Below are positions 20,549-36,020 of a DNA stretch of 37,750 nt, piece by piece; the stretch's first letter is position 1, and every line of letters starts with the position of its first letter. The position numbers and the translations under genes were made by a program. The notes beneath the pieces were generated by a model. That model did no database searches, had not been told where the DNA came from, and saw only the letters and a list, made by a program, of their open reading frames with translations. The stretch spans positions 1-37,750 of the IMG/VR virus record IMGVR_UViG_3300047550_001190; one strand, given 5' to 3'. The DNA comes from a virus.

Positions 20549-20935
20549 TTAATAACCTTGCCAAAATTGAAGGGGGTTATTCAACACCGTTTCTATTCCA
20601 GGCAATACAGACTTTGCTTTGTTGATTTGTATAAGATTATATTCTTGAACACCTGCTTCCATCAACATTTTACCTTGATATAAATTATTTTTTCTGCCAC
20701 TTATTTGCCAATCAACTTTTGTTTTGAGAAAAAACTTAATATTAATAGCATTATAATCTCTAGCACATGTTTCTATAATTTGACGTTGATTAATTCGTCC
20801 AACAAAATATCTAGTAATAAACCCATATTGATAATCATTCTTGGATGGTGTAGGTAAATAGGTGCTTGGATATGTCATTTCGTAATCTGACAATCCTAAT
20901 TTAGCCACCAATTCTGGATCTGCGTCTTGAATCAT
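20549..20935 (-). CDS. Hypothetical baseplate-region protein, 128 aa
   Basis: Unrecognised. It has a Pro/Thr/Tyr-rich start (LSDYEMTYPSTYLPTPSKND), then YGFITRYFVGRINQRQIIET, a Trp/Lys block and a C-terminus LPGIETVLNNPLQFWQGY. It begins at an ATGA overlap with the large hub-like gene upstream, so it is translated with it and is probably a small baseplate or tail component. Its stop is followed in frame by the polymerase reading frame after only two sense codons. Confidence 0.7.
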   Translation of the reverse strand: MIQDADPELVAKLGLSDYEMTYPSTYLPTPSKNDYQYGFITRYFVGRINQRQIIETCARDYNAINIKFFLKTKVDWQISGRKNNLYQGKMLMEAGVQEYNLIQINKAKSVLPGIETVLNNPLQFWQGY

Positions 20936-23900: not shown

Positions 23901-24264
23901 AGGCTTCGCCAAACCCAGCACCTCCTTGTAACAAAAATCCATCATACTTTGGAAGTTGGTCGTTCTTAAACAAATACTTACTAACTGGAACCGTTGGACT
24001 TCCAATCTGACCCGTTCCATTAGAAAATGCTCTAACCCACGCAGTCATTGGTCCTCTGTATGTAGCATGGTCTGTTTGAAAATTAATAACAGTATTTACA
24101 CCGGCATTTTGACCAATATTAGTATTATTACTACGTCTTCTTAACTCACGAACCAATTGCCACGGAATATTTTGCGCTTCCCACCATCTAACCTCTTCTA
24201 CAATATCATTTGTTTGTGGTGAGGCCCATGTTGGCTGTTTGTTTGGATCGGTGTCTTGTGCCAT
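20932..24264 (-). CDS. Large baseplate hub-like protein
   Basis: A 1110-aa protein. The C-terminal block (FDGIFGFRMFQHIAIANLPK, then YVPGNVIFMINEVDHQLNAG, then KWETVV) resembles the end of phage baseplate hub proteins of the gp27/gpD type: a GF..., LP..Y..., F.I..V.H...., W.T pattern. The N-terminal half has ISVNVKTNKDMMSNATINWK and LEYMMPFWLSPKINVFLEFG. In between, residues about 485-545 are low-complexity: two 24-aa repeats NPSPPGSRAAAAAAAGQRG plus flanking Pro/Ser. The protein is far larger than T4 gp27 (391 aa), so it may fuse hub and wedge functions. Its position after tape measure, baseplate and gp53-like genes supports a baseplate role. Confidence 0.6.
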   Translation of the reverse strand: MAQDTDPNKQPTWASPQTNDIVEEVRWWEAQNIPWQLVRELRRRSNNTNIGQNAGVNTVINFQTDHATYRGPMTAWVRAFSNGTGQIGSPTVPVSKYLFKNDQLPKYDGFLLQGGAGFGEAYGYKREGNTLVEDKAIIGYEATGKPHYIDTKYRTNTYYDSGPHCPSGQKFPQNSVVPSILPPPGIISVNVKTNKDMMSNATINWKCYSLAQLEYMMPFWLSPKINVFLEFGWNLFNIDSLLTLSDKLDCYKLIVRPEQALERYYKSFGNYGLVTGIISKYNFSTDDGFVYNCTTELISRQAMYAGFRADNPTVTDKEDGSSTEYVNLKEFFSTYLQFTKEVVEERDNFLNYILKNAKKISEKISKDAKEAKKTQSTTEVFLSKLSALGSSPSQPTPSTTPQSSNSQPSINSKLFYNGNPENRIFMGRYQSVYKGSKIPKAAAKKTISRAEAASRGGRRNPTPGNPSPPGSRAAAAAAAGQRGNQLSTNPSPPGSRAAAAAAAGQRGNPIPTPPKPADSPTISYGSLSEGPFQGRSIVSFADKSTDFDYEDGSNDEVWYQLDFVFELINLFCSEKSTKNNKIDISDIIITAHPNLISCDKHVLIPNPIAPKISIGRTPSVRDVAGNKKVSDGYLETIDASQNLFIDQFYWKKFDKEIQAGQLAEKNKANSKLDPECIDPNTPDSTIWKAALKARNTFKTLGSVRDNLDIVINWLYYNINNPNKSSAAFPFANSQNKYQPYYYGYLKHLYISKSKLIEIGKDNELKTLEQIVNKILSIINESVDNFWNLQTVKSDNGGLSIIDKNLKIPRQAAIYKFDIGSTSNVIKKIDFNVNMTNEQVNQVLYGSGQNAANVMSKITEVSKNMDISAKQKKDRITQIKTGLPSLVYADRFDDLELQKQIEQKLKDIDKEIAEEEKRTQENPNEPQNNGVPHGPIVDKNEEIRQLQTQGKQSDEILVMRMIALKPGQDPYAFVESTDKWFSSIRKGAQQKALVENTTSGDIKLGWVYLNLPSTLKGKLREMLDDGDTINNSGKYSGPADNFTLTLTFDGIFGFRMFQHIAIANLPKPYVPGNVIFMINEVDHQLNAGKWETVVTAMLRCAPDQDYKYILV
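22741..22872. repeat. 72-bp tandem repeat inside the hub-like gene
   Basis: Two copies with a 72-bp period (starts 22741 and 22813). The first 60 bp differ at only two positions, so the duplication is recent or homogenised. It encodes NPSPPGSRAAAAAAAGQRGN followed by a short variable end. Confidence 0.9.
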
Positions 24265-24269
24265 ATAAC

Positions 24270-24560
24270 TTAATTAGCATTTTTTAATGACTGAATTATT
24301 ATTGGTAAATTGCCTGGAATTCTTATTTGTTTTCCAAGCGGTATAGAAAGTTTTCCATTACCTAAATTATTTGCATTTGCAATAACCCACCAATATGATT
24401 CATTACCATAATATTTTTTAGCTAAACTGTCAAGGTAATCTTGTTCACCAGCAATAATATAAATGTCAGTGGTGTCTGGTTGAATAACAGGGTAATACGT
24501 AGTGTTATATACTCGTTGACCATCCCATCTTTTACTTATAGGTGTAAATTGATATCTCAT
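24270..24560 (-). CDS. LysM-like baseplate protein, gp53-like
   Basis: A 96-aa protein. The central part, AGEQDYLDSLAKKYYGNESY followed by WWVIANANNLGNGKLSIPLG and KQIRIP, is a LysM-type fold pattern: 'G-x-xDxLDxLAxKYYG...YWWVIAxANN...G...IPxGxxLRIP'. T4 baseplate wedge protein gp53 and tail proteins of the gpX type contain such a domain. It would join the wedges or the hub at the centre of the baseplate. The ATG lies two bases after the stop of the 871-aa gene, and the hub-like gene starts five bases after its stop, so all three are one operon. Confidence 0.7.
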   Translation of the reverse strand: MRYQFTPISKRWDGQRVYNTTYYPVIQPDTTDIYIIAGEQDYLDSLAKKYYGNESYWWVIANANNLGNGKLSIPLGKQIRIPGNLPIIIQSLKNAN

Positions 24561-24562
24561 AA

Positions 24563-27178
24563 TTATGGATTGGTTGTTTGTTGTGTATTATTGTTTGCGG
24601 CTGCTAAATCATTATCATAACGAACATTAACTGAAAATGTGTTCAGTCCATTTAATACATCATCATAAGTATCAACTCTTGTAACTCCATCTCTTGCCAA
24701 CTGTTGTTTATCCATTTGTAAATTATATTGAGCAGCTATTTGATTAGCAAATTCATCCACTGTGACATTTTTGACTGGAGCATCACCCCATATTGCTCTA
24801 CCTGTCTTAGGAAGATCTTTTTCAAGAACATTCATTTCAATTTGAATATCAGCTTGTCTTGGAAATTGTGCTACTCTACCCAGTGAATTAGCTTTTCTTT
24901 GGTCAACCGAACTATTCAGTAAAATATTTTCTTCGTTCCAATTAATTGCTTTTTGTGGATTAGATCCATAGTATGGACCATAATACCAATTTTGATTATT
25001 TTTTGATGCTTCTTCTGGTATTGTTTCCCAACCAGCATCTTCTGGAATAGTTACGTTACAACTATTGATAACCACGTTATGATTCTTATAGAAATCACCT
25101 AACGTAAGTTGAACCATTGGAGCCACCATAAATCCACCAAACTGTTGTAGTGTATAATTGGATGGTCTTGTCAATCCAACTAAATAATTGATTCTGTTCC
25201 ACATAGGCATCAACTCTTTGATACTATGTGCTACTACAGAGAAATTAAAGCTAACGCTACGAGTAAATCCTTTATAGTAATACAACTTGTCTGGTCGTCC
25301 TAAATATTCAATAGTTTCCCAAGTAGCATTATTATTATCATTAATGCTTTTTACTGTGGCATTGAATGGTATGTATTTCTTGTTTACAATATCATAGAAA
25401 TAAAACTTGATGATATCTGGTCCATATGATCCAAACTCTTTTGTGTTAGCATATAAAGCATCAAATTGTGGTGGTCTTAATACTTCCAATGCATTTACAT
25501 AATCAACGTTATTTGTTGGTCTGATATATCTATCATTTGGACCTTCACCAAGTCTTGTGGGAACTTCTTTGCCTGGTTGTGGATTGGCTCTAAACAATCC
25601 TTGATATGTTTTGTTGTCGATACCAGGTTGATTCTTCTTGGCAGGATCAACGGCTTTAACAAAATCCATACCAATTTCATTTGTGTTAAATTTTGCGAAT
25701 TGAAGGGGTTTTAATCCTTTACCATTTACGTTATATTTTGTTTTATTAGGTCCACCAATATCTGTTAAAACCGAATCTAAATTGTTAATAATTTTTTTAA
25801 CGTAAAGATTTTCTTCGTCAGCATACGTGTCTTTGAAATTTTTTGGTTGTTCAACTAATGCTTTATAGTTTAATAGTTGATCACTTTTTTCAATTTCAAG
25901 ATTATTGTCAATTCCTCCACCAACTAAGTCTCCATATTTTAATGAATTGCCTTGTTCCGAATTTTTACTCTTTTCGGTTCCTATTGAATTGGATTTAAAT
26001 GGTGTTCCTCCGTCATATACACCAACTTCATCAGTTGTTGAATAACTTATTGACGATTTACTTGATCTAGCCAAATTGATTGTAACTGTTGATCTTACAA
26101 CATTTGGTTTGTTACTAGACTCACCATAAAAACGTTGAGGAACAGCTTGAGAATAACTTGCTCTTTTGCCAAATCCAATCGAATTCAACAATCCACTTAA
26201 AATACCTCCACCACCTACACCGGTTGATGATGGATTAAATAATTTGCCAGCGTTTAGATACAAATCATAGGTTTGTTCGTCTGCACGGTATTTTGATGCC
26301 CACGGTTGTTTTGGGGGAAGAATGCCACCTATAGCAGTATTGTTTTGTATAAATTTTCCAATACCAGATAATAGTCTGCCAAAAAATGATCCTCCGCCTT
26401 GATTTACTAATCTTGTGTATCTAGCAGCATTATATGCATTTGTAGCAGTTTGTCCTCTCAACAGGTCTTTAACGTCACCTCTAGCTATAGGAGCGACCAC
26501 TTCATCAGCACGGTCTCCACCACCAACTAAACTGGTTAATGTGCTTAAACCAAGTCCGTTACTTGCTGTGCTAGCAACAGACGATCTTGGTGGTGGTGGT
26601 TGAGGAGGTGCGCTGCCAACCAAAGCACCAACTGTGGATACCACACTTCCAATGCCAAGTCCGTTTATAATACCTCCAAGAACATTACTGGTGTCAATAT
26701 GACGAGTTGGTCTGTCGAGTAAACCAAATGACGCGGGTCTTAATGCAGCAATTAATGGTGAACCTGGATTATATACCTTTGTTTCGTCAAATGCTTGATA
26801 TCCTTGAAGAATCAATTGTTTGACTATGAATTGTGTTCCATTACTAGATCCAAGATATTTTCTAATTAAATTTGCATCTGCGGCAGCTGCATTGACTATA
26901 TTAGTAATTTTTCCAGATCGTTGACCTTGATTTGGATTTTTATAATCATATCTTTTCTTTAAAGCATCTGCCAGACCCACATCTTCTGGTTTATTAATAC
27001 TATATAATTTTTCAGCATTTCCGTTATTTTCAAACAAAGCACGTATTTTGCCTGGGGATCTAATATTAATAAAATCAGGTGGAGGAAGTGTTAAACCAGC
27101 ACCTTGAACATTTGATAACGTGGTGATTTGGTCTGATCCACCTGTAAATCCTTCTACGAATGTATTGCTATTTGCCAT
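24563..27178 (-). CDS. Baseplate-tube junction protein (gp48/gp54-like), large
   Basis: An 871-aa virion protein. The region about 640-760, with GFTRSVSFNFSVVAHSIKEL, MWNRINYLVGLTRPSNY, GGFMVAPMVQLTLGDFYKNH and VTIPEDAGWE, resembles proteins that cap the baseplate and start the tail tube (T4 gp48 and gp54): a 'F.F.V.A.s..EL.PMW..iN.L.GL..P' pattern followed by 'P...LTLGD'. The first 440 residues are long, Gly/Ser/Pro-rich and variable. The C-terminus ends in an Asn/Thr-rich tail. It follows the tape measure gene, with TATTTATA four bases before its ATG. Family assignment is moderate; a baseplate role is more secure. Confidence 0.55.
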   Translation of the reverse strand: MANSNTFVEGFTGGSDQITTLSNVQGAGLTLPPPDFINIRSPGKIRALFENNGNAEKLYSINKPEDVGLADALKKRYDYKNPNQGQRSGKITNIVNAAAADANLIRKYLGSSNGTQFIVKQLILQGYQAFDETKVYNPGSPLIAALRPASFGLLDRPTRHIDTSNVLGGIINGLGIGSVVSTVGALVGSAPPQPPPPRSSVASTASNGLGLSTLTSLVGGGDRADEVVAPIARGDVKDLLRGQTATNAYNAARYTRLVNQGGGSFFGRLLSGIGKFIQNNTAIGGILPPKQPWASKYRADEQTYDLYLNAGKLFNPSSTGVGGGGILSGLLNSIGFGKRASYSQAVPQRFYGESSNKPNVVRSTVTINLARSSKSSISYSTTDEVGVYDGGTPFKSNSIGTEKSKNSEQGNSLKYGDLVGGGIDNNLEIEKSDQLLNYKALVEQPKNFKDTYADEENLYVKKIINNLDSVLTDIGGPNKTKYNVNGKGLKPLQFAKFNTNEIGMDFVKAVDPAKKNQPGIDNKTYQGLFRANPQPGKEVPTRLGEGPNDRYIRPTNNVDYVNALEVLRPPQFDALYANTKEFGSYGPDIIKFYFYDIVNKKYIPFNATVKSINDNNNATWETIEYLGRPDKLYYYKGFTRSVSFNFSVVAHSIKELMPMWNRINYLVGLTRPSNYTLQQFGGFMVAPMVQLTLGDFYKNHNVVINSCNVTIPEDAGWETIPEEASKNNQNWYYGPYYGSNPQKAINWNEENILLNSSVDQRKANSLGRVAQFPRQADIQIEMNVLEKDLPKTGRAIWGDAPVKNVTVDEFANQIAAQYNLQMDKQQLARDGVTRVDTYDDVLNGLNTFSVNVRYDNDLAAANNNTQQTTNP

Positions 27179-27182
27179 TGTA

Positions 27183-27190
27183 TATAAATA
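27183..27190 (-). promoter_or_regulatory. TATTTATA motif, 4 nt before the 871-aa gene
   Basis: Coding-strand TATTTATATACA-ATG in the 21-bp gap after the tape measure stop. Confidence 0.5.
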
Positions 27191-27199
27191 GTATTATAC

Positions 27200-29845
27200 T
27201 TAGAATGTTGCTTGTCCTAATGATCCTCTTGTATTAGAAGATTTAGCCAAAGCATAGTTAACCTTTTGACCATCAAGATTAACTGAGATACCACCATTAA
27301 CCATAGTTTCAGTTAAGTTATCGACTCTATCAGCAATAAATCTTAAACCTTCTTCTAGTTTTGCCATACCAGCATCTTTTGTCTCGTTCATCTTGGCTAA
27401 TACTTCAGCTCCTTTTACATCAATATTGAGTTCTGGTAGTTTAGTTCCAGACAGTTCTTTTAATGCACCAGCAGCAACTTTGATTCCAGCAGCTGCATTG
27501 CTCAATAATGACAACTGTGTTGTTATTCTGGTCAATTCTCTTGTGGGAAACAATATCATAGCAGCACCCAATATACCCAGTGAGTAACTTAGTGCTGTTA
27601 TACCTGCTGCTCCAACAAGAAGTAATGGAGCAACAAGAGCAAGTTTTATAAGTGGAGCAGAAACACCAGCTATGACCTCTGGTAGTTGTTTGAATGCTGC
27701 CAACATGGTTTCAAATGCTTTGGTAAGAACTCCGGCTACAATAGTTGCCAACCCAGTAAATATCACTCCTAAAATTGCGAGTGATGGAGCTATCATTTGA
27801 ATAGCTTTAGCAAATCCAATTGCTGCTAATGATACTATTCCTAGAGCAGCTGCAAATAATATTACCCCCACGTTTAAACCTGGTATCAACATTATTGCTC
27901 CTAGTGCTACCAGTGAAACACCAAGTATTACAAGTGCTTTGGTAAATGCCATTATTTGTTCACCGCTCACACTTCCCAACATACTAAATGCTTTGGCTAG
28001 ACCCATCACCGACAATGTTAATATTCCTAAAACCAGTGCCATTTTTATAAGTTGAGCTGGACTTATTGAACCAAATGCGGAAGCCATGCCTTTGATTCCT
28101 CTTGCCATAGACTCCAGTCCTTTACCAACACCAGTTCCGGCAGATTCTGCAGCTTTTGCCAAGGCATCTCCAAGAAAATTAAGCACCGAGGATAATGTTC
28201 CTTTTAGTAGTTTAAACGTTCCAATTACTAAAAGAATGGCCGTAACGCCTACTGCTGCCCATTTACCAAGTGGATTTTCAATATTGGTTATTAACGATAT
28301 AAATTTGAAGAAATAAACTTGAACACCCATGATCAAGTCATAAAGTGGTTTCATCAATTTACCAATATTATTCAAAGCTTCTTGTTTTGCTTGAGTTAAT
28401 TTTTGAAGTTCTGCTTCAGCAGTTTTTTGTTCAAGTATTTTTTTGAGTTCTTCTTTACGTGCTTCAAGCCCACCCTTCTGTAATTTTTCAAGCTCCTTTT
28501 GAGCCTTTTTCATTTTTTCTGCTTCTTCTGGGAACATACGTTCAGCCTCAAGCATGTTCTTACGTTGAGTTTGAATCTTTTGTAGTTCACCAAAATCTTT
28601 ACCAGTAGCTTCAGCAAGTGCTTTACGTTGGTTGTAATTCAATTTATCAAGATCACCAACACGTTCAACTTCTTTTTGTAATGCTTTTTCAGCACCAAGC
28701 AAATCACCAGCAAATGCCAATCTACGTGATTCATTAAAATTTATATTTTGACCAAGCAATGCGGAGGCTTTTAATTCTGCACCAATTGATGATTCAAAAT
28801 TTAAAAGTGCTTCGGCTGACTTGGCCATACCGTCTAATGAAGTTCCGAGTTTTCTTGCTTCAGCTGCTTGTTTGATTAACTCAGCAGTATTGCCTTTAAA
28901 GATTGTTCTAACAGCACCACTTGCACTGGCAACATCTCTCATTACTGTGCCGATTGGAACACCGGCTGCTTCGGCTGCTTTAGAAGCAATTGCGGTCATT
29001 GCTTCTTGAGCCATAACAGACGTGCCGCCTACTTCAGCAAGTGTGGTTTGAAACTTGGTTGCTTCATCAACACTCAAACCAGTCAAACGACTAATGTTTG
29101 CTGATTCTTTACCAATTGCGGCAAGTTGTGGTCCAGTAAGAGCATATTCTTTACGAATAGCAGTAACGGCAGCAAGTATTTCTTGATTTGATGCTAAATT
29201 AGTTGATAATCCAGTATTGACTTTCTGAATTTCTTTATACTGATTATTGATTTCGTCTTTGGTTGTTCCTTGTGCTTTGGCAGTGTCGCTCAACAATTTG
29301 TCATATCCTTCGGCCAATGACATGATTGTTTGATATACTCCTAAAATTTTGTCGTAAAGTTCTCTATTTCGTTTTAATGCTGATGCTTCTTGTTCAGCAG
29401 CACGTGCAGCCATTCCAGCTTGACCAGCTTTTCTACCAATCAAAAGTCTTTGTGTTTCCAAATTGTCTGCGACCAATTGGTTTAGGCGAAGTTCTTCTGT
29501 AACAGTTAAACGGACACCCGCTGATCTTTTAGCTTCTAATTCGTTTCTTTCTTTTATATATGAATTTATTCTAAAAACATCACTAAGAGCTCTTTCTTGA
29601 ACACTCTTCATTTCAAGAGCTTTGTTTTTTAATGCAGTTTCTTGAACTTGCATTTCCGCTAATTTTTTTGTAGTCAATGCAGCTGGATCAACCCAACCAT
29701 TCATTTTTTTACCAAGATCTTCAGCTGATCTAGTAATAGAATTAAGGTTCTTCATGCCTTCTTCAAGTTCTTTAGCAAATTTTTTGCCAACTCCTTGAAG
29801 TGCTTGTTCCAAACTTCTGATGTCTTTATCGAACGACGATGCCAT
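27200..29845 (-). CDS. Tape measure protein
   Basis: An 881-aa protein with the usual tape-measure design: long helical, coiled-coil N-terminal part (1-500) rich in Ala, Glu and Lys, then several hydrophobic stretches (about 530-800: WAAVGVTAILLVIGTFKLL, LVILGVSLVALGAIMLIPG and others) and a helical C-terminal end. It sets tail length and is ejected with the DNA. At roughly 1.5 angstrom per residue it would correspond to a tail of about 130 nm. It sits directly downstream of the probable chaperone frameshift ORF, the conserved order of tailed phages. A TATTTATT motif lies 16 nt before the ATG. Confidence 0.85.
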   Translation of the reverse strand: MASSFDKDIRSLEQALQGVGKKFAKELEEGMKNLNSITRSAEDLGKKMNGWVDPAALTTKKLAEMQVQETALKNKALEMKSVQERALSDVFRINSYIKERNELEAKRSAGVRLTVTEELRLNQLVADNLETQRLLIGRKAGQAGMAARAAEQEASALKRNRELYDKILGVYQTIMSLAEGYDKLLSDTAKAQGTTKDEINNQYKEIQKVNTGLSTNLASNQEILAAVTAIRKEYALTGPQLAAIGKESANISRLTGLSVDEATKFQTTLAEVGGTSVMAQEAMTAIASKAAEAAGVPIGTVMRDVASASGAVRTIFKGNTAELIKQAAEARKLGTSLDGMAKSAEALLNFESSIGAELKASALLGQNINFNESRRLAFAGDLLGAEKALQKEVERVGDLDKLNYNQRKALAEATGKDFGELQKIQTQRKNMLEAERMFPEEAEKMKKAQKELEKLQKGGLEARKEELKKILEQKTAEAELQKLTQAKQEALNNIGKLMKPLYDLIMGVQVYFFKFISLITNIENPLGKWAAVGVTAILLVIGTFKLLKGTLSSVLNFLGDALAKAAESAGTGVGKGLESMARGIKGMASAFGSISPAQLIKMALVLGILTLSVMGLAKAFSMLGSVSGEQIMAFTKALVILGVSLVALGAIMLIPGLNVGVILFAAALGIVSLAAIGFAKAIQMIAPSLAILGVIFTGLATIVAGVLTKAFETMLAAFKQLPEVIAGVSAPLIKLALVAPLLLVGAAGITALSYSLGILGAAMILFPTRELTRITTQLSLLSNAAAGIKVAAGALKELSGTKLPELNIDVKGAEVLAKMNETKDAGMAKLEEGLRFIADRVDNLTETMVNGGISVNLDGQKVNYALAKSSNTRGSLGQATF

Positions 29846-29861
29846 ATTCTGTTATTATATT

Positions 29862-29869
29862 AATAAATA
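29862..29869 (-). promoter_or_regulatory. TATTTATT motif, 16 nt before the tape measure gene
   Basis: Coding-strand AGATATTTATTAATA between the frameshift ORF stop (29875) and the tape measure ATG. Confidence 0.5.
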
Positions 29870-29874
29870 TCTAG

Positions 29875-30117
29875 TTATCCAAAACTAGGTCTATCTATTT
29901 TACCAGAACGTGGTGGTGGTTTTGATGCTGATTTTGTTTGTTCAGCCTCTTTTTCCTTGGCATCTATGAGTTTTTTGTAATAAAAGTTTCTAAGATATAC
30001 TGGTAGGTTGTATACCTCAGTCGGAAAGAATCCTCCATTACCATAATAACAGAGGTCAAATATAACTTGTTGGATGTAAACCTTATACTCTGGAGTCAGG
30101 CCAAAAAAATTGGACAG
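29875..30117 (-). CDS. Start-less ORF, probably the frameshifted C-terminal part of the tail assembly chaperone
   Basis: An 80-codon frame between the chaperone and tape measure genes, closed upstream by TGA (30120-30118) and ending in TAA at 29877-29875. It has no ATG, GTG or TTG. Yet the peptide is protein-like: GLTPEYKVYIQQVIFDLCYY, then GNGGFFPTEVYNLPVYLRNF, a Lys/Glu helix and a polar tail ending RPSFG. It overlaps the end of the upstream gene in the +1 frame at a run of seven T (30109-30103), so a +1 or -2 slip at TTT-TTT-T yields a 337-aa fusion. Tailed phages commonly make such G/GT-type chaperone pairs just before the tape measure gene. Not detected by standard start-to-stop ORF finding. 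Confidence 0.75.
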   Translation of the reverse strand: MSNFFGLTPEYKVYIQQVIFDLCYYGNGGFFPTEVYNLPVYLRNFYYKKLIDAKEKEAEQTKSASKPPPRSGKIDRPSFG

Positions 30118-30889
30118 TCATTGGCACTGCTGCCCTTTCTTCGGCACCGCACTCTTTGCAACTAAAGTCAAATGATGAATCAATATCGGGAGTAAATTCT
30201 CTTACATATTGACGTAGAGCTAAACTGTCTCTACTTTGCATATTGTCAACAAATGACTTGATCTTGACTGGATCGGCATCACCATTGACTTCTACAATCA
30301 TTTTCTTTAGACGTGATGTAATTTCAGCAGAAGCAGTCTTGTTTAATTTTGTCAAAGCGGTTGCGTCACGTTCAATAGACTTTTCGTCTTCGTCTGTCAA
30401 CAATTTGAACTTTATATTAACCTTTGAATAGGGTAAAGTATAATCAAACAAATTTACGCCTGGTTCAAATTTTGTTTCGTCCAATTCCTTTTCTTTGAGC
30501 TCACTCAGATTTACATTTACTTTGTTAACAGATTGACATTTAGGGCATGGAACATCAACTGGACCATAATTGTCACCATAAGCTATACGACGAACTGCAA
30601 AGATTACAGCATTTTTATCGCCAATAAGAAAGTCGGTTGTTTTGATGTTTTTATCAACAATAAGAGACTCAAGAAGTTTATCAATTGCCAATCCTTTCTT
30701 GAGAAGATTTGGGCTGGTAAGAATATCTTCTTCTTTAGCAGTCATCATCTTTATTTCAACTGTTCCTTTTGATAATGGATGATTTGCTGGATAAAACAAT
30801 CCTTTACTCGGAAGATCTATAACTTCAGTAGGAAACGTATTTTGTGGTTTGTTGACCGCTGTTCTTTGTAAAACAATTTCTTCGCTCAT
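30083..30889 (-). CDS. Tail assembly chaperone / gp26-like zinc-motif protein
   Basis: A 268-aa protein. It contains PCPKC (near 118) and SCKEC (near 245), two CxxC pairs that could bind one zinc. The N-terminus includes EVIDLPSKGLFYPANHPLSK and the end reads PMTVQFFWPDSRV. From memory, this layout (LPSxGLxY, CPxC, a helical acidic middle, FFWP at the end) is found in T4-family baseplate-hub or tail-assembly proteins of the gp26 group. The zero frame stops five codons after the T7 run; slippage there would continue into the 29875-30117 frame. Its position immediately before the tape measure gene fits a chaperone that keeps the tape measure soluble. Confidence 0.6.
   Translation of the reverse strand: MSEEIVLQRTAVNKPQNTFPTEVIDLPSKGLFYPANHPLSKGTVEIKMMTAKEEDILTSPNLLKKGLAIDKLLESLIVDKNIKTTDFLIGDKNAVIFAVRRIAYGDNYGPVDVPCPKCQSVNKVNVNLSELKEKELDETKFEPGVNLFDYTLPYSKVNIKFKLLTDEDEKSIERDATALTKLNKTASAEITSRLKKMIVEVNGDADPVKIKSFVDNMQSRDSLALRQYVREFTPDIDSSFDFSCKECGAEERAAVPMTVQFFWPDSRV
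30100..30112 (-). promoter_or_regulatory. Probable programmed frameshift site
   Basis: Coding strand CAA-TTT-TTT-TGG: seven T (30109-30103). Zero frame reads Gln-Phe-Phe-Trp and stops soon after. A +1 shift gives Phe-Phe-Gly-Leu-Thr and a -2 shift adds one Phe before the same product. A -1 shift would meet TGA two codons later. Confidence 0.65.
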
Positions 30890-30933
30890 AAATTATAACA
30901 ATACATAGACCAATATCTGACTTTTTAAATATT

Positions 30934-31722
30934 TTATTTTGGCTTTATTTTATTTTGAGCATCTTGAGCCGCTTTAGTCAAAATTGTAGCTCTGGTATTA
31001 ATTTTAGCAATAGCATCTTTAAATTTTGATTCTGGCCCAATTAACGCATCCATAAAACTATTGTCTTCCTTGATCATTTGTTTCACTATTTCCTTATACT
31101 TTTGTTTTTTAGCTTCATCCATAGATTTATTTTTGGTTAATATATTATAAATACTTTTGACCACACCAGTTTTTACACCTGGATAATTAGTGGTAAAATT
31201 TTCAAAATCGTTGTTTGCTAAATCTTGTCTCAATGTGCTAGCACTGATACTTTGTCCGTTTTTGTCATCAGATCTACCTTGATACAATACTGGAGCATCA
31301 TCAGTCATTTCCACAGACGATACATTTTCTGGTGCTGTTCGGCCGTCCTTTGTTGGTTTAGTTTTATAACGTTGAACAGCAGCAGAAAATATCTTGCTTC
31401 GTTTTGCGTCTTCTGGACTCTTTGAACTTGCAGCCAAAGCAATCACTTCATTACTGTCTTTTGGCAAACTAAATACATATCCAAATGCAGCGTTCATTGG
31501 ACTGTCATCATCTACTGGAACCACTTTGATCTTTGGGTTGGTAGGCAATAGGTTCCAAATGGCCACACTTTGTTGACGGTTAATGCCATCACGTTCACTG
31601 GGTCCAACCATCACAATTACTTTGCCTACATCAGCCCTACTGGCAAATTTGTTAGCTAACCCCAAATGTCCAGCATGTGGTGGTTTGAATCCGCCTGGTA
31701 GTAGCACCGTTACTTTGTTCAT
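30934..31722 (-). CDS. HxGH-motif nucleotidylyltransferase with helical tail
   Basis: A 262-aa protein of the cytidylyltransferase/NMN adenylyltransferase superfamily. Nucleotide-binding motif GGFKPPHAGHL (10-20, HAGH 16-19) and the C-terminal signature ISASTLR (159-165, family ISxSxxR) are both intact, so it is probably active. The substrate cannot be read: NMN (NAD salvage), a lipid head group or a sugar phosphate are all possible. After the catalytic domain comes about 70 residues of charged helix (DEAKKQKYKEIVKQMIKEDN), unusual for such enzymes. It lies between gp19 and the chaperone gene in the tail operon, with a TATTTATT motif three bases before the ATG, so it is expressed with virion genes. 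Confidence 0.75.
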   Translation of the reverse strand: MNKVTVLLPGGFKPPHAGHLGLANKFASRADVGKVIVMVGPSERDGINRQQSVAIWNLLPTNPKIKVVPVDDDSPMNAAFGYVFSLPKDSNEVIALAASSKSPEDAKRSKIFSAAVQRYKTKPTKDGRTAPENVSSVEMTDDAPVLYQGRSDDKNGQSISASTLRQDLANNDFENFTTNYPGVKTGVVKSIYNILTKNKSMDEAKKQKYKEIVKQMIKEDNSFMDALIGPESKFKDAIAKINTRATILTKAAQDAQNKIKPK

Positions 31723-31725
31723 ATC

Positions 31726-31733
31726 AATAAATA
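31726..31733 (-). promoter_or_regulatory. TATTTATT motif, 3 nt before the nucleotidylyltransferase gene
   Basis: Coding-strand TATATTTATTGAT-ATG, just downstream of the gp19 terminator, so it may restart transcription. Confidence 0.5.
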
Positions 31734-31742
31734 TATGAAAAG

Positions 31743-31775
31743 AAAAAAACCCCTCGCTTTTTCAGCGAAGGGTTT
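31743..31775 (-). terminator. Rho-independent terminator after gp19
   Basis: A 12-bp stem AAACCCTTCGCT/AGCGAGGGGTTT with one G-T pair and a 5-base loop, followed by a T run on the minus strand. It separates the tail tube gene from the genes downstream. Confidence 0.9.
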
Positions 31776-31797
31776 AAAGGACATAAATGAACAAGAA

Positions 31798-32289
31798 TTA
31801 GTATTGAAGGATACAGTAGTCAGGTTGAATGGTCAAGTTAATTTTCATTGCTTCACCATCATTGCTCCAGTCTAGTGAGTTGAATGATGCTTCAGTGATG
31901 AATGCTCCCTTGAGGGTCCATTCTTCAACCTTATCACCAACTGGACCTAGAACGTTGACGGTCAAGTCTTTCTTGTAAAAGTCTTGATAACCATCACGAC
32001 CAGTTACAGATTCGTGGTGTAGACGAACCCATTCCATTACAGCTTGAGCACCACTTGGAACAACTGGATCATATAGTTCCATTGTGATTGTTCCCCAAAT
32101 GCTCTTGCCTTTGTAGAAGGTTCTGATGTTGATGTGATCAAGTTCTTTTGCAGCTTGAGTTATCTTTGGACGGTCTGTCTTCTTGATAATAAATGAAGGA
32201 ATGCCGTCACAATACAAGATAAAACGATTTTGAACCTTTGGCTCAAACGCTGTGTAAAATATTTCCGATGGATTTAGTAGTTCTGCCAT
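31798..32289 (-). CDS. Tail tube protein gp19
   Basis: A 163-aa protein matching T4-like gp19, which stacks in hexameric rings to form the inner tail tube. The features are NRFILYCDGIPSFIIKKTDR, HINIRTFYKGKSIWGTITME, LYDPVVPSGAQAVMEWVRLH, ESVTGRDGYQDFYKKDLTV and ILGP-like/GDKVEEWTLKGAFITEASF, ending DWSNDGEAMKINLTIQPDYC: all are the classic tube-protein order. It has the best ribosome binding site of the late genes (AAAGGA, eight bases before the ATG), a TATTTATA motif 24 nt upstream and its own strong terminator, as expected for an abundant structural protein. Confidence 0.92.
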   Translation of the reverse strand: MAELLNPSEIFYTAFEPKVQNRFILYCDGIPSFIIKKTDRPKITQAAKELDHINIRTFYKGKSIWGTITMELYDPVVPSGAQAVMEWVRLHHESVTGRDGYQDFYKKDLTVNVLGPVGDKVEEWTLKGAFITEASFNSLDWSNDGEAMKINLTIQPDYCILQY

Positions 32290-32313
32290 AATATTATTCC
32301 TTTATGTCCTAGA

Positions 32314-32321
32314 TATAAATA
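32314..32321 (-). promoter_or_regulatory. TATTTATA motif, 24 nt before gp19
   Basis: Coding-strand CATATTTATATC. Here the spacing leaves room for a normal leader with AAAGGA. Confidence 0.55.
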
Positions 32322-32350
32322 TGATTAAGATTAAATATTTATGATTTTTT

Positions 32351-33511
32351 TTATATTTTGTTGAGCTCTTTGTCTGTGAGTTTTGTTATATTAGTTTTGA
32401 GTTTATTAACAAAACCACTACTTCTCAAAAGTTTAAAAACAATATTTTCTATACTAAATTCTCCTCCTGAGCTAAGGCCAGTTTCACGCATATCATACAA
32501 ACGTTTGACCATAGCTTTGAGTTTTTCAAGATTTTGATCATCTACAGCTTTATTGATCTTTGATACTAAATCTTTATATTTTGTTTTTACAGTTTCTGTG
32601 TCAATTTGTGGAGCTTCATATTTTGGTTTTTTTATCCATTTATTGTTTAATACACTGTAGGATGCTTGACTTCTGGTTTCATGTCCAACATCTTGAATGT
32701 AAACTTCTACTGGATGGTTGTTTATTTTTATATCATGTTTGTCATTCCATTGACTTTTATATCCATCTACCAGTTTTTGAACCAGATCTTTATTTTCGTC
32801 AATTTTTGAAAAATCAATTGCTATATGTAAATCTATATCGCTAGTTGGTGTCCAGTTATAACCGGCGGTGCTTCCAAGGAACAATATGTCTTCAATTGGA
32901 GCAGTAAGATCTGTGCTTTTGTAGAATGTTGTAGCAATATTTAACAAACGATCCAATACGTCTGGTTTAATGGCGTCGCCGTCCCATATGTCAGGGCAAA
33001 GTATACTGTTGTAAATTCTAAATGATTGTTTTACCCCAAGTAATTCCTTTAACTTGTTGATGGTATCTGTTGCGTCGGTATGTAATATTCCAATACCACC
33101 AGCATTTACAAATTCCTCAATATTGTCTTTTCGGTCATCAATTAATATTGCGTTTGGACTTGCAAATTTAGCCTTATCTTCTCTGTGTGGAACCAGATTC
33201 TGTTTAAATGTAACGTTGTGATCTGTTAACCATTTTTCTTTGCCTTGTTTACACTCTGGATCCGTTGCATGACTTAATATTTCAGTGGGAAACTCTTTGA
33301 TAAAATTATAGAGTATTTTACCATCACTCATCCACGGCATTGTAGCATAAAAATTTGGACTATGACTTTTTACTAAATTATAACGTTGTTCTTTGCCATA
33401 TTCAGCTTCATATGTTTCAACTGGAACACCGAATGTTTTTTCAAACTGTTTTTCCCAGTCCGTTAAAACGCCGTCCATGTCAACGTAAATTTTGTATTTT
33501 GATTCTACCAT
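32351..33511 (-). CDS. HAD phosphatase-nucleotidyltransferase fusion
   Basis: A 386-aa two-domain enzyme. Residues 1-160 are a HAD-superfamily phosphatase: nucleophile motif VDMDGVLTDW (D11, D13), a Ser after the second strand (ILSHATD), a Lys in the following helix and ILIDDRKDN (D125-D126). It resembles 5'(3')-deoxyribonucleotidases. Residues about 165-300 are a Pol-beta-type nucleotidyltransferase: FLGSTAGYNWTPTSDIDLHI with G213-S214 and D225/D227, and a third acidic residue probably in HPVEVYIQD. The last 90 residues are helical. Both active sites look intact. Possible roles are nucleotide or RNA-end repair, or modification of a host RNA or protein. It sits between gp19 and small late genes; TATTTATT lies four bases before its ATG. 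Confidence 0.8.
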   Translation of the reverse strand: MVESKYKIYVDMDGVLTDWEKQFEKTFGVPVETYEAEYGKEQRYNLVKSHSPNFYATMPWMSDGKILYNFIKEFPTEILSHATDPECKQGKEKWLTDHNVTFKQNLVPHREDKAKFASPNAILIDDRKDNIEEFVNAGGIGILHTDATDTINKLKELLGVKQSFRIYNSILCPDIWDGDAIKPDVLDRLLNIATTFYKSTDLTAPIEDILFLGSTAGYNWTPTSDIDLHIAIDFSKIDENKDLVQKLVDGYKSQWNDKHDIKINNHPVEVYIQDVGHETRSQASYSVLNNKWIKKPKYEAPQIDTETVKTKYKDLVSKINKAVDDQNLEKLKAMVKRLYDMRETGLSSGGEFSIENIVFKLLRSSGFVNKLKTNITKLTDKELNKI

Positions 33512-33515
33512 TTAT

Positions 33516-33523
33516 AATAAATA
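33516..33523 (-). promoter_or_regulatory. TATTTATT motif, 4 nt before the HAD-NTase gene
   Basis: Coding-strand ATATTTATTATAA-ATG, overlapping the region right after the upstream stop. Confidence 0.5.
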
Positions 33524-33525
33524 TT

Positions 33526-33861
33526 CTACTTTTTAAGAAATAAACGGTATATTACTCTTCCAAGTTCAGCGCTAAACTTTCTGACTTTATACTCTGGTAA
33601 ATCCCAAAAGAAAGCATGTGTAACCTCTTCGATTAATACATTTAACTTTCTACGAGATAGTAAATGATCACCAATTTCAATACGTGAGTTTTTTAAATTG
33701 GGATTATAACAATATCCATCAGCGGTCGTCAAAGACTTAAAATGTATCGGAATAACTTGTTTTAAGTAAGTTTCTATGCTGAGCTGCTTACTTTTATCTA
33801 ATTTTAAGCTGCTGCGCTTGATAGTGCTGCGCTTTTTGCGCTTATTTAATTTTGCATTCAT
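33526..33861 (-). CDS. Small basic protein with degenerate HExxH-like motif
   Basis: A 111-aa protein. The first 30 residues are very basic (KLNKRKKRSTIKRSSLKLDK). The C-terminal half reads KLNVLIEEVTHAFFWDLPEY, then a helix (VRKFSAELGRVIYRLF). This resembles small phage proteins with HExxH-type 'LIHEVxHAxFWDL' motifs, but the first His is Glu here (EEVTH), so a metal-dependent peptidase activity is doubtful. It may be a pseudo-enzyme or a structural homologue. Repeated AAGCGCAGC units encode part of the basic N-terminus and recur in the gap upstream. Confidence 0.6.
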   Translation of the reverse strand: MNAKLNKRKKRSTIKRSSLKLDKSKQLSIETYLKQVIPIHFKSLTTADGYCYNPNLKNSRIEIGDHLLSRRKLNVLIEEVTHAFFWDLPEYKVRKFSAELGRVIYRLFLKK

Positions 33862-33899
33862 AATTTATAAGCATATAAACAGCAAGGCTTGCTGCGCTT
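33811..33899. repeat. Four short GCTGCGCTT-type repeats
   Basis: GCTGCGCTT occurs at 33811, 33826 and 33891, with a shorter TTGCGCTT at 33836. They are GC-rich islands in an AT-rich stretch covering the start of the 111-aa gene and the gap before it. Confidence 0.6.
33871..33894 (-). terminator. Weak terminator-like hairpin
   Basis: Near-perfect palindrome CAGCAAGGCTTGCTG at 33880-33894, followed on the minus strand by TTTATATGC, in the gap after the 61-aa gene. The T run is poor. Confidence 0.35.
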
Positions 33900-33904
33900 A
33901 TACT

Positions 33905-34090
33905 TTATATATTCAGAATGTCAACAAATTTTAAACTTATACCAACAGAAATATCCAATTTTATTTTATCAGATTGATATATTTTGCTGAATAAATCTAA
34001 AAAGTCCTCTTCAATTAAAGGCTTTTCTGGCGGCTCAATAAGCGAGTCGTAGTATACAGAATCATCATACGGCTCAAATCTAACTTTCAC
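33905..34090 (-). CDS. Small acidic protein, 61 aa, GTG start
   Basis: A short acidic protein (begins MKVRFEPYDDSVYYDSLIEP, ends LKFVDILNI), function unknown. The start codon is GTG at 34090; an ATG two bases upstream is immediately followed by a stop and cannot be used. The TATTTATA motif lies exactly four bases before this GTG, the same spacing as at three other genes, which supports both the motif and this start. It lies in the run of small late genes between the fibre-like and HAD-NTase genes. Confidence 0.6.
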   Translation of the reverse strand: MKVRFEPYDDSVYYDSLIEPPEKPLIEEDFLDLFSKIYQSDKIKLDISVGISLKFVDILNI

Positions 34091-34094
34091 ATAA

Positions 34095-34102
34095 TATAAA
34101 TA
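34095..34102 (-). promoter_or_regulatory. TATTTATA motif, 4 nt before the 61-aa gene
   Basis: Coding-strand CATATTTATATTAT-GTG. With 4 nt spacing, a -10 role implies a leaderless GTG-start message. Confidence 0.5.
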
Positions 34103-34108
34103 TGTGAA

Positions 34109-34390
34109 TTATTTAGCAGCAGGCTTAAAAGTTCCGTCTTTTATATTAAGAGTTCCATCGCCATATTTTTGACTCAAGTCTTGAAGAATCTGTTGTTCTT
34201 CTTTTTGAATTTCAGACCACGATTCAAAAATCTTTTTACGAATTTCTTCAACATCTTGCAACTGTTGAGTCAAATCGACTTTGGCAAGTTCATTTTGACC
34301 AAGTTCAAATATTTTTTGTTGATATTTGCCTTGAAGTTGCGCAATTTGTTGCATTTCTGCATCTGTAAATTTTATAACATTATCACTCAT
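34109..34390 (-). CDS. Small coiled-coil protein, 93 aa
   Basis: Start corrected to ATG at 34390; the frame is open eight codons further, but only with a TTG. The protein (MSDNVIKFTDAEMQQIAQLQ and on) is almost entirely helical with Gln/Glu/Lys heptads and ends KYGDGTLNIKDGTFKPAAK. The 'KYG-G-L-I-DGTF.P' tail recalls small conserved proteins in T4-like marine phages, function unknown to me. The C-terminal strand pair may dock the helix to another virion protein. No TATTTAT motif is present before it. Confidence 0.65.
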   Translation of the reverse strand: MSDNVIKFTDAEMQQIAQLQGKYQQKIFELGQNELAKVDLTQQLQDVEEIRKKIFESWSEIQKEEQQILQDLSQKYGDGTLNIKDGTFKPAAK

Positions 34391-34426
34391 ATACAATATA
34401 TACTGTCGATCCAACTATTGCCTTTT

Positions 34427-35977
34427 TTATATTGTTTTATCAATTATAGTTTGTAGCTTATCGACATCTTTACGTTCAGCATTAATCATATAATAAAAAT
34501 CATATGATTCTTTATTAAATAACTTTTTAAACAATCCAACTTTGCGATCAACATTGATGTATACTTTGTTGTCTTTAATTTTTTCAACATAATACACATC
34601 AGGTCTACCAATTGGAGTAATGTGAATAGAAATAGAATTTTCATCAACCAACCATGGCCAATAATCTGGCAAATCTATACAAAGACTATTTGATCTACCA
34701 CGAACAAATACACCGTGTTCTGGACCTTCCAACGAAGCATGAACCAATCGTTTGGTCTCGTCTTTTTGGTGATCAATTACGAATGATTTTGTAGTAGCGG
34801 CAAACGACCCATTAACCTCTAAATTAAATTGTGGATCATCCTTGTTTATACCAACTCTACTACCCGTTACATATAAAACATTTGTTCCGTCTACTTTACT
34901 TACAACCCTAAATGGAGCTGATGAACCACTTGCAATAATTTGACGTTCAACGAGGATGTCACGTCCTACTGTTATATCATTCTCAGCAACAACATTGTTA
35001 TTAGCATGAATATCAAGAGAAGTAAGCAAATCACTTACTACGACAGTTCCAGCCATTAAATTGCCAACATCAGCATTACTAGCACTTAAACTACCACTCA
35101 GAACCAATCCAGAACTTTTATCTTCCCACACTCCGTCAACAGCATTGTAAACCAAAAATGCACCGTTTGATGGAGAAGCACTACTACTAATGTTGCTAAT
35201 TTCATCAATTGTGACTGGTTGTTTAAGATCAACAAATATACCACCATCAAATGTATCAACAACGGTTATATATCCAATTTTAACAACATCTCTAGGAGCA
35301 GATGGTTTGATATTTGTAAATGAACCAGAAACAGATGGACTTAAATATAAAACATCACCAGCACTAAAACCTGTGTTGGTATTAAGACCTTCAAGATACC
35401 CAGTTATTAATATATTACCAACAGATCCATTGAGTATAGAAACATCAGATACAACACCTAAAACATCACTGGTAACAGTTGAACCCGGCGTATGTATCTT
35501 TGATACAGCAAGATCTACTACCAATTCTCCAGACAAGTTACTTCCAATTACTTGAACTACTTGACCCCTCAACAAACTAAATCCAGCACCATTTTGAACC
35601 TTAACTAATGAAGGATTTGGACCATCACTGCCATTTAAAGCGTAAGAAGCAGTAAGTGAAGTAAGAGCATAACTACTTGTCCCCAATAATGAACCAGTAA
35701 ATGATCCACTAATACGGTCAGTTACAAACAAACTACCTGTTATAACCGCGCTACCACTGAAGGGAAACCCCGAACCGCCAGTGCCACCATTAGAAGCATA
35801 AGAAGCACTTAATGCATATGATGCGGATGTAATAACTAAAGATGATGAAGGAATTACAACTGGTAATTTATTCTCGTCAAAAGCTAACAAAGAAGCGGTC
35901 TGTGGACGAATAATTTGTTCAACAAATGAACTACCACTTCTTCTACTTAATAATAAATCCTTTTCGAGAAAAATCAT
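34427..35977 (-). CDS. Tail fibre / virion appendage protein
   Basis: A 516-aa protein. The N-terminal 130 residues carry repeated S-x-S-Y-A-L units (SASYALSASYAS, SSYALTSLTASYAL), typical of trimeric beta-structured fibres. The middle (about 130-380) is Ser/Gly/Val-rich with VLYLSPSVSGSF and IIASGSSAPFRVVSK. The C-terminal 140 residues begin KSFVIDHQKDETKRLVHASL with EGPEHGVFVRGR, a domain I know from the ends of several marine phage and algal virus fibres. It probably binds a host surface component or forms baseplate-associated spikes. The protein lies two genes from neck-like proteins; TATTTATA is 12 nt before its ATG. Confidence 0.7.
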   Translation of the reverse strand: MIFLEKDLLLSRRSGSSFVEQIIRPQTASLLAFDENKLPVVIPSSSLVITSASYALSASYASNGGTGGSGFPFSGSAVITGSLFVTDRISGSFTGSLLGTSSYALTSLTASYALNGSDGPNPSLVKVQNGAGFSLLRGQVVQVIGSNLSGELVVDLAVSKIHTPGSTVTSDVLGVVSDVSILNGSVGNILITGYLEGLNTNTGFSAGDVLYLSPSVSGSFTNIKPSAPRDVVKIGYITVVDTFDGGIFVDLKQPVTIDEISNISSSASPSNGAFLVYNAVDGVWEDKSSGLVLSGSLSASNADVGNLMAGTVVVSDLLTSLDIHANNNVVAENDITVGRDILVERQIIASGSSAPFRVVSKVDGTNVLYVTGSRVGINKDDPQFNLEVNGSFAATTKSFVIDHQKDETKRLVHASLEGPEHGVFVRGRSNSLCIDLPDYWPWLVDENSISIHITPIGRPDVYYVEKIKDNKVYINVDRKVGLFKKLFNKESYDFYYMINAERKDVDKLQTIIDKTI

Positions 35978-35989
35978 ACTTTAGTCTAT

Positions 35990-35997
35990 TATAAATA
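35990..35997 (-). promoter_or_regulatory. TATTTATA motif, 12 nt before the fibre gene
   Basis: Coding-strand CCATATTTATAATAG in the gap between the 478-aa gene stop and the fibre ATG. Confidence 0.5.
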
Positions 35998-36020
35998 TGG
36001 ACAATGATCAATATATTCAA

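Follow-up and report, generated by a model that had tools for sequence, protein, structure and literature searches.

A conserved hidden +1 frame at the end of a T4 gp26-family gene suggests a tail assembly chaperone pair

Comparison of viral genomes suggests that a gene of the T4 gp26 (PF12322) family likely encodes a pair of tail assembly chaperones, of 268 and 337 aa, with the longer form produced by a +1 ribosomal slip. Expression and chaperone function are inferred, and we have no expression, mass-spectrometry or RNA data. The gene lies in a 37,750-base IMG/VR record (hereafter the window, meaning the whole stretch of DNA analyzed), in which every gene discussed is on the minus strand. By comparison with relatives, we show a conserved frame, slip site and direction, selection on the frame, a family-level hairpin, and a likely homology with versions of the gene that use the -1 frame.

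A hidden frame ahead of the tape-measure-position gene

The features of the locus are as follows.
31798..32289 (-): tail tube protein gene, upstream (phrog_4542, 9.5e-26)
30083..30889 (-): gp26-like gene, candidate TAC-N, 268 aa (PF12322, phrog_150, model fold)
29875..30889 (-): inferred +1 fusion product (TAC-NC), 337 aa, TGGC read as one step, expression not shown
30114..30130 (-): hairpin GCAGU-GCCAAUG-ACUGU, 4 nt before the E-site codon, counterpart of the clade-conserved hairpin
30101..30109 (-): slip site, with E-site TTT at 30109-30107, P-site TTT at 30106-30104 and zero-frame A-site TGG at 30103-30101
29875..30117 (-): hidden +1 frame, 80 codons, from the stop at 30120 to the TAA at 29877-29875
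30102..29878 (-): putative TAC-C domain, 75 codons after the slip, part of the hidden frame
27200..29845 (-): 881-aa gene in tape-measure position (by position and annotation of counterpart genes)

The gp26-like gene sits between the tail tube and tape-measure-position genes, adjoining the latter, with one further gene between it and the tail tube gene, and 29 nt separate the end of the hidden frame from the 881-aa gene. The 881-aa gene has no Pfam or PHROGs family match above the family's own cut-off; its counterpart is annotated as tail tape measure protein in immuto and as tail length tape measure protein in LIS04. The 3′ end of the gp26-like gene reads ATG ACT GTC CAA TTT TTT TGG CCT GAC TCC AGA GTA TAA. 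The preliminary description, made from the sequence alone, had proposed that an 80-codon frame without ATG, GTG or TTG encodes a natural-looking peptide, that it overlaps the upstream gene at CAA TTT TTT TGG, and that only a +1 or -2 slip can join the two, giving a 337-aa product beside the 268-aa one. These claims held: the frame from 30117 to 29875 has none of the three codons and is conserved coding sequence in relatives, the overlap is where it was placed (CAA from 30112, TTT 30109, TTT 30106, TGG 30103), a stop at 30098 closes the -1 frame, and the arithmetic is correct for a +1 slip, in which the skipped base is 30103 (a -2 joining would, by inference, add one residue).

TTTTTTTGGCC is found once in the window, and the in-frame pattern TTY YTT T is not unique, occurring 3 times over 15,747 coding bases. 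A second such site, TTC TTT TGG, is in frame at 33604-33612 (-), within a small gene at 33526-33861, and a T7 run that is likewise in frame, with CT after it, is present at 23274, in a gene for a 1110-aa protein with alanine-rich repeats (RAAAAAAAGQRGN and PSPPGS units; 20932-24264 (-)). We also observed by eye that the protein encoded between the tail tube and chaperone genes (30934-31722 (-)) has a nucleotidyltransferase-like start, GGFKPPHAGH; in Stenotrophomonas phage Bhz51 a gene annotated nicotinamide-nucleotide adenylyltransferase is also found near gp26 (L223 416-916). Another protein (32351-33511 (-)) appears by eye to join a HAD-like half (DMDGVLTDW) to a nucleotidyltransferase-like half (GS..SDIDLHI).

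Family and fold of the two domains

The gp26-like protein meets the PF12322 gathering cut-off (58.6 bits against a threshold of 24.5) and matches phrog_150 at 1.5e-18. Its AlphaFold2 model (pLDDT 91.5, 71 sequences) resembles the models of other phages' gp26 proteins (TM 0.80 for SP-15). Among solved structures, VIA-align placed YqbN (Z 4.7), which we take to be a chaperone relative, and the HK97 tail assembly chaperone (Z 4.5) on top. This match to known chaperones is modest, as all scores are under 8 and two other chains fall within 1 of the top, namely 5ir0 (a PICI-element protein from Vibrio, Z 4.1) and a chain of Cren7 (3.8). Foldseek ranked the HK97 tail assembly chaperone second (E 0.6) and YqbN third (E 2.3), behind an HSP33 chain, and a sequence search of the PDB with the N-domain profile found no credible relative. 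The zinc motif that had been ascribed to the gp26-like protein is not general, as several +1 relatives lack the cysteines (L021, L025, L112).

The C-domain belongs to no Pfam or PHROGs family. A match to DUF6760 was obtained for only one of 17 members (E 0.24), and that name is absent from the open-access literature searched. A plasmid search with a composite C-domain peptide gave no match, and a single-sequence fold of the 337-aa fusion was uninformative (pLDDT 33).

The hidden frame is conserved coding sequence

A first set of relatives combined 30 of 31 loci from a search with the hidden peptide, the best 80 of 206 loci with a gp26-like protein, and the window, for 111 sequences of which 60 are distinct; one peptide-search locus (L001) is identical to the window. 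The C-domain profile scores best in the +1 frame in 60/60 distinct sequences, with a lowest score of 29. Because some first-set search patterns covered the slip site, the test was repeated with N-terminal gp26 profile patterns. This second set comprised the best 80 of at least 593 viral loci, 9 genome-contig loci and one locus from a GXN1 query, and came to 85 distinct sequences after removal of one locus running off its end; 84/85 are unbiased toward the site because N-terminal patterns found them. The profile places the C-domain in the +1 frame in 83/85. Of the two misses, L137 has FFWP and, one base later, FFGL too, and L213 is a distant, weak match from the GXN1 query. The two sets combined hold 142 distinct loci. 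Scans of viral contigs with the SP-15 and GXN1 proteins returned one locus each, and 9/10 named or long records agree by eye with the +1 arrangement.

Substitutions beyond the gp26 stop fall mostly at third positions of the +1 frame (2066 vs 706 and 298). Across 125 first-set pairs, codons with a single change comprise 1667 synonymous and 435 non-synonymous cases, and omega is about 0.065 for the part beyond the gp26 stop (the pairs are not independent). The hidden frame is conserved as coding sequence far beyond chance.

A start codon is found in the +1 frame upstream of the site in 38/142 distinct loci and within 10 codons after it in 19/142, so that 57/142 have some ATG, GTG or TTG ahead of codon 11. 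Since many relatives have such a codon, probably by chance, its absence from the window, which had been offered as an argument for frameshifting, does not carry the case.

Slip-site variants favor +1 over -2

Codon choice at the slip site is nearly invariant. Among the 142 distinct loci the P-site codon is TTT in 125, CTT in 16 and TTA in 1, and the A-site codon is TGG in 131, TAC in 9, TTC in 1 and CTC in 1 (first base T in 141 loci, C in 1). The E-site codon is TTT in 138/142. The consensus is therefore YUU-U, typically TTT TTT TGG, with CTT TGG and TTC TTT TGG variants, and the presence of a P-site YTT in 141/142 loci (TTT or CTT) meets the +1 re-pairing criterion of programmed ribosomal frameshifting. 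The sole locus with another P-site codon is L205 (3947-3955, TTT TTA TGG). P-site Phe is encoded by TTT in 125/125 cases vs 1188/1503 elsewhere in the same genes, and P-site Leu by CTT in 16/17 vs 651/3440 elsewhere; these counts come from related sequences, and no true probability can be derived from them.

Named phages extend the range of sites: TTT CTT TGG in immuto, TTT TTT TGG in Mel-JY01 and RM378, TTT TTT CAC in SP-15, TTC TTT CGT in GXN1, TTT TTT AGT in LIS04, CTG TTT CGC in BRock, CTG TTT CAG in LuckySocke, and TTT CTA TTC in LR756508, where the slip is placed at TTT C. Re-pairing at +1 is possible at every site except L205, and only poorly in LIS04, while -2 re-pairing is impossible at several. 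The base after the P-site codon, which is needed for +1, is T or C in nearly all sequences. We favor +1 over -2 because TTC TTT T, TTC TTT CGT, CTG TTT CGC and CTG TTT CAG let tRNA-Phe re-pair at +1 and break pairing at -2. Canonical -1 programmed frameshifting, with the frame at -1 after X XXY YYZ, is not met in the window or the clade. A slip of +1 rather than -2 is thus the likely reading, based on comparison of variants and distant phages and without expression data.

This result bears on several points of the preliminary description. Its broader proposal, that a T4-like phage uses the rarer slip direction for a G/GT-like pair with a gp26-like protein, finds good support in the comparisons, with expression inferred; it had left +1 and -2 undecided, and the variants fit +1 and disfavor -2. 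Its suggested check on conservation of the T7 run gave T7 at 99/117 sites and TTTCTTT at 13/117; the suggested peptide search and test of frame conservation were run, with the +1 frame found in the proportions given above (60/60 and 83/85). Its use of Listeria phage PSA as the precedent for a +1 chaperone failed: the +1 shifts of PSA are in capsid and tail-shaft genes (PMC5009743), and the +1 chaperone case named by that review, as “very likely,” is haloarchaeal HSTV-2 (PMC5009743).

Relatives that use the -1 frame, and the two genes of T4

In cyanophage DSL-LC02 and Aeromonas phage Ah1, gp26 ends GAT TTT TTC and a similar domain follows in the -1 frame. By eye, a -1 frame domain is also present in P-RSM1, pf16, Bhz51, OLIVR5, D508, T751 and S-SSM6a. 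We assembled a -1 set from the best 80 of 127 cyanophage-type loci, one of which lacked room, leaving 72 distinct. The longer open frame is at -1 in 72/72, and a profile built only from seven named -1 phages scores best in the -1 frame in 72/72 (lowest score 42). The sequence TTTTTC (T TTT TTC) is found in 71/72 loci. An anti-Shine-Dalgarno match lies 9–11 nt upstream of the -1 site (mean -8.7 vs -0.5 kcal/mol for shuffled codons), with GGAG, GAGG or AGGG upstream in 71/71 sites. Stimulation of -1 slips typically involves a Shine-Dalgarno element about 10 nt upstream.

Profile comparisons connect these domains. The +1 and -1 C-domains align in hhalign at 87.7% probability, the -1 C-domain matches the tail of T4 gp51 at 97.1%, and the C-domain of the group formed by SP-15, GXN1, LIS04, RM378, BRock and LuckySocke gives 93.3% against the +1 kind and 87.3% against the -1 kind. 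The +1 C-domain profile, when compared directly with the T4 gp51 tail, gave a negative result (probability 1%). When the +1 profile, which is too narrow, was run on single -1 sequences, 0/72 reached 15 bits, with 58 scoring best in the -1 frame. Because no single -1 sequence reaches 15 bits, homology of the two kinds rests on profiles and position; on that basis we consider it likely.

T4 gp26 and gp51 both belong to PF12322, gp51 consisting of a gp26-like part and a C-tail of about 48 aa. T4 has no hidden frame after gene 26, and instead has two genes (26 and 51). Two PF12322 genes are also annotated side by side in four other loci (L214, L215, L216, L218).

A hairpin adjoins the E site across the +1 clade

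The 24 nt before the E-site codon fold with a mean of -6.01 kcal/mol vs -2.82 for synonymous resampling (117 +1 genes). The excess is -1.3 to -0.9 in overlapping windows and -0.5 to +0.3 at ≥24 nt upstream, and no folding excess is seen at the -1 site (+0.72, 60 genes), with scatter of -0.6 to +1.0 elsewhere. A stem of ≥5 pairs, including ≥2 G-C, is present in 75% of +1 loci vs 9–15% at control places, and its end lies 0–4 nt from the E codon in 82/114 loci. There are 96 distinct hairpin sequences, with stems mostly of 4–8 pairs. Where both partners are third codon positions they covary, with C-G in 7, G-C in 11 and U-A, A-U and G-U in one each (21/22 paired), and wobble-to-wobble pairs in another register are paired in 19/19; registers were picked by best stem, a choice that favors pairing. 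After thinning to 56 sequences the excess is -2.55 (P = 4.7e-7, Wilcoxon), and 48% of sequences fall individually below P = 0.05 vs 2–5% at controls, leaving 52% not significant. The hairpin is about equally strong at CTT and TTT sites (z -1.68 for 14 CTT, -1.84 for 102 TTT).

The window's own 5-pair hairpin is not significant alone (P = 0.29), and the same stem in L002 and L007 is also weak; GXN1 has no hairpin at its slip site. Conservation of a hairpin next to the E site is thus shown at the level of the clade, and its stimulating action is inferred.

A Shine-Dalgarno-like element occurs in 3/128 +1 sites at the place where 71/71 -1 sites carry one, and on these counts a Shine-Dalgarno stimulator was rejected for the +1 sites. 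The close spacing of RF2 was not met either, with a weak mean of -2.3 vs -0.5 kcal/mol at spacer 3; a GG-type motif lies within the last 9 nt at 29/128 +1 sites. Listeria phage LIS04 (L119 4682-4696) has GGAGAG directly before TTT TTT AGT, short-spaced and Shine-Dalgarno-like as in RF2, and no clear hairpin. Evidence for a downstream stimulator at +1 sites is weak (mean z -0.48, 30% below -1). Separately, a terminator-like stem of 10 pairs lies at 30055..30032 (-), inside the C-domain frame and some 45 nt downstream of the slip site; a pattern scan of the region found 2 terminator-like sites vs 0.4 expected in shuffles.

Host translation signals may be relevant. The starts of 11 window genes (20932-37457 (-)) show no Shine-Dalgarno signal (0.47 vs 0.25 shuffled), which suggests a host that does not use such signals, and none was found at 7 immuto gene starts or 59 first-set gp26 starts. 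The gene starts of DSL-LC02 show some signal (-1.87 vs -0.44, 11 genes). Bins labelled as Bacteroidota groups supply 6/9 genome-contig loci (bins being weak host evidence), and immuto infects Flavobacterium. Bacteroidota seldom use Shine-Dalgarno signals. One possibility is that phages of such hosts might be unable to use an internal Shine-Dalgarno helix and have an mRNA hairpin as a substitute. Contrary to a simple host rule, Mel-JY01 infects Microcystis, SP-15 infects Bacillus, and GXN1 has no hairpin.

Alternative explanations

The rival that survives best, although we judge it unlikely, is stem-loop-mediated transcriptional slippage, in which RNA polymerase would lose one U of the T7 run once a nascent hairpin has formed, leaving the fusion frame to be read by normal ribosomes. 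In its favor, the clade hairpin is followed by T7, mostly within 0–4 nt, close to the arrangement of a Roseiflexus IS (PMC5009743), T7 is present at most sites (99/117), and the E-site codon is nearly always TTT. Against it, realignment would produce a mismatch at the 13/117 sites that read TTTCTTT, where hairpin strength is about the same; the frame persists in GXN1, BRock and LuckySocke, which have no long T run; and the P-site codon keeps its third base even at sites with a broken T run. The criterion of a realignable run in all members is not met, although slippage is not excluded for T7 members such as the window.

We give little credence to a -2 ribosomal slip as in Mu, which would add one Phe. 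UUU UUU permits it at T7 sites and the frame is compatible, but TTC, CTG or AAC ahead of the P-site TTT cannot re-pair at -2.

A separate gene with a non-standard start (ATC, ATA, CTG) or re-initiation can be set aside almost entirely. Some observations point that way: in LR756511 (L118, just after the gp26-like match at 4001-4768) the gene is split, the C-domain starting from an ATG of its own in a different frame with a TAATG overlap, and this is the one case among ten named or long records of the kind that the preliminary description had said would refute it; short separate ORFs are annotated in immuto, Mel-JY01, SP-15, BRock and LuckySocke; and potential start codons precede codon 11 in some relatives, as counted above (57/142). 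Against this, the geometry and slip codons are fixed with no conserved start, and the T4 counterpart tail belongs to a longer PF12322 protein. The independent-gene reading was rejected on this evidence from relatives.

An assembly or sequencing error in the homopolymer, conceivable for a T7 run in a metagenome contig, is refuted to near certainty by relatives, which show this organization in 142 distinct loci and in isolate genomes, even at sites that lack a long run.

Proposed mechanism

Under the preferred reading, a chaperone pair made by a +1 ribosomal slip, most ribosomes would stop at 30083 and release the 268-aa N form. A minority, holding UUU in the P site with UGG in the A site, would slip one base forward as tRNA-Phe shifts from UUU to the UUU one base on, and would yield the 337-aa NC form, which has the C-domain in addition. 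By inference, the two forms coat the tape measure protein from the next gene, and by analogy with lambda G and GT the C-domain would recruit tail tube subunits. In most clade members the hairpin directly behind the E site would probably aid the slip, replacing an internal Shine-Dalgarno helix. That the C-domain is reached by a conserved frameshift at the 3′ end of the first frame is supported by sequence evidence only; expression, the product ratio, a ribosomal rather than transcriptional origin, the action of the hairpin and chaperone function are inferred.

A bolder reading, which we put forward with some doubt, is that the slip direction flipped between lineages together with its helper: -1 with an internal Shine-Dalgarno element vs +1 with an E-site hairpin. 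In this reading, the few host clues for the +1 clade point mostly to Bacteroidota, and the tested genes lack Shine-Dalgarno signals. If true, evolution would have produced, in the hairpin of the +1 clade, a natural equivalent of a mechanism demonstrated in reporters.

Comparison with known systems

Parts of this picture are already in the literature. Tail chaperone frameshifting is widely conserved, with T4 named as the exception (PMC5009743); a role as hub assembly chaperones is listed for T4 gp26 and gp51 (PMC3004832); both a short and a fused copy are stated to exist in some T4-like phages (the PRFect paper, PMC10885494, citing Vladimirov 2022); and poly-T -1 signals in T4-like chaperone genes have been mentioned (PMC12846349). 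The -1 and two-gene arrangements are thus likely known in part. We found no +1 shift in PF12322 genes in the titles or abstract openings of the open-access literature searched, and Vladimirov 2022 may already describe -1, or even +1, examples in this gene family. Whereas chaperone frameshifting is known, new here are the +1 direction, its reversal among relatives and a naturally occurring hairpin at the E site.

Within the T4 gene family itself a single problem is solved in three ways, by slipping back, by slipping forward and by having two genes, and viruses appear capable of exchanging a decoding trick for its mirror image. The +1 clade is large and mostly metagenomic, and in the isolate genomes examined the second protein is missing from the annotation or truncated there. 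The paired contrast at the same gene and position (Shine-Dalgarno with -1, hairpin with +1) makes the relation between slip direction and upstream mRNA structure testable with natural sequences.

Previous studies provide precedents for such upstream structures. A hairpin adjoining the E site raises +1 and lowers -1 frameshifting on 70S ribosomes in vitro, and designed hairpins at the E-site position did the same in E. coli extracts (PMC6321510). The in-vitro hairpin, with a 12-pair stem longer than those of the +1 clade, was effective on CUUUGA only when RF2 was absent, and reached ~60% of the effect of a Shine-Dalgarno element (PMC6321510). The same effect was noted for a SARS coronavirus hairpin in constructs, and T4 gene 60 has a motor-like 5′ stem (PMC5009743). 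The window clade resembles the reporters of PMC6321510 in that a hairpin adjoining the E site goes with +1, and differs in having a conserved natural stem, mostly of 4–8 pairs, in place of a 12-pair in-vitro construct.

Like lambda G/GT and the chaperones of other long-tailed phages, the gp26-like gene lies just ahead of the tape measure gene and has an N form and a frameshifted NC form (the latter inferred here); most of those systems shift -1, whereas the gene here belongs to the PF12322 (T4 gp26) family and is inferred to shift +1. The cyanophage-type gp26 genes (Kyanoviridae, Ah1, pf16, Ackermannviridae and others) share the gp26-like N part, a likely homologous C-domain and the same place, but unlike the window clade they use the -1 frame, T TTT TTC and a Shine-Dalgarno-like element 9–11 nt upstream, with no hairpin. 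T4 gp26 and gp51 share the family, and differ in being two genes with no hidden frame after gene 26. The +1 shift of RF2 (prfB) is alike in its CUU P-site codon (16/142 loci here, 15 then followed by U) and in a forward slip at a paused A site (the pause being inferred); unlike RF2, the window clade has a sense A-site codon, mostly UGG, and mostly a hairpin instead of a short-spaced Shine-Dalgarno element. A parallel in direction is the chaperone of the haloarchaeal myovirus HSTV-2, a tail gene with a very likely +1 slip (PMC5009743, PMC8211752) in a different virus lineage.
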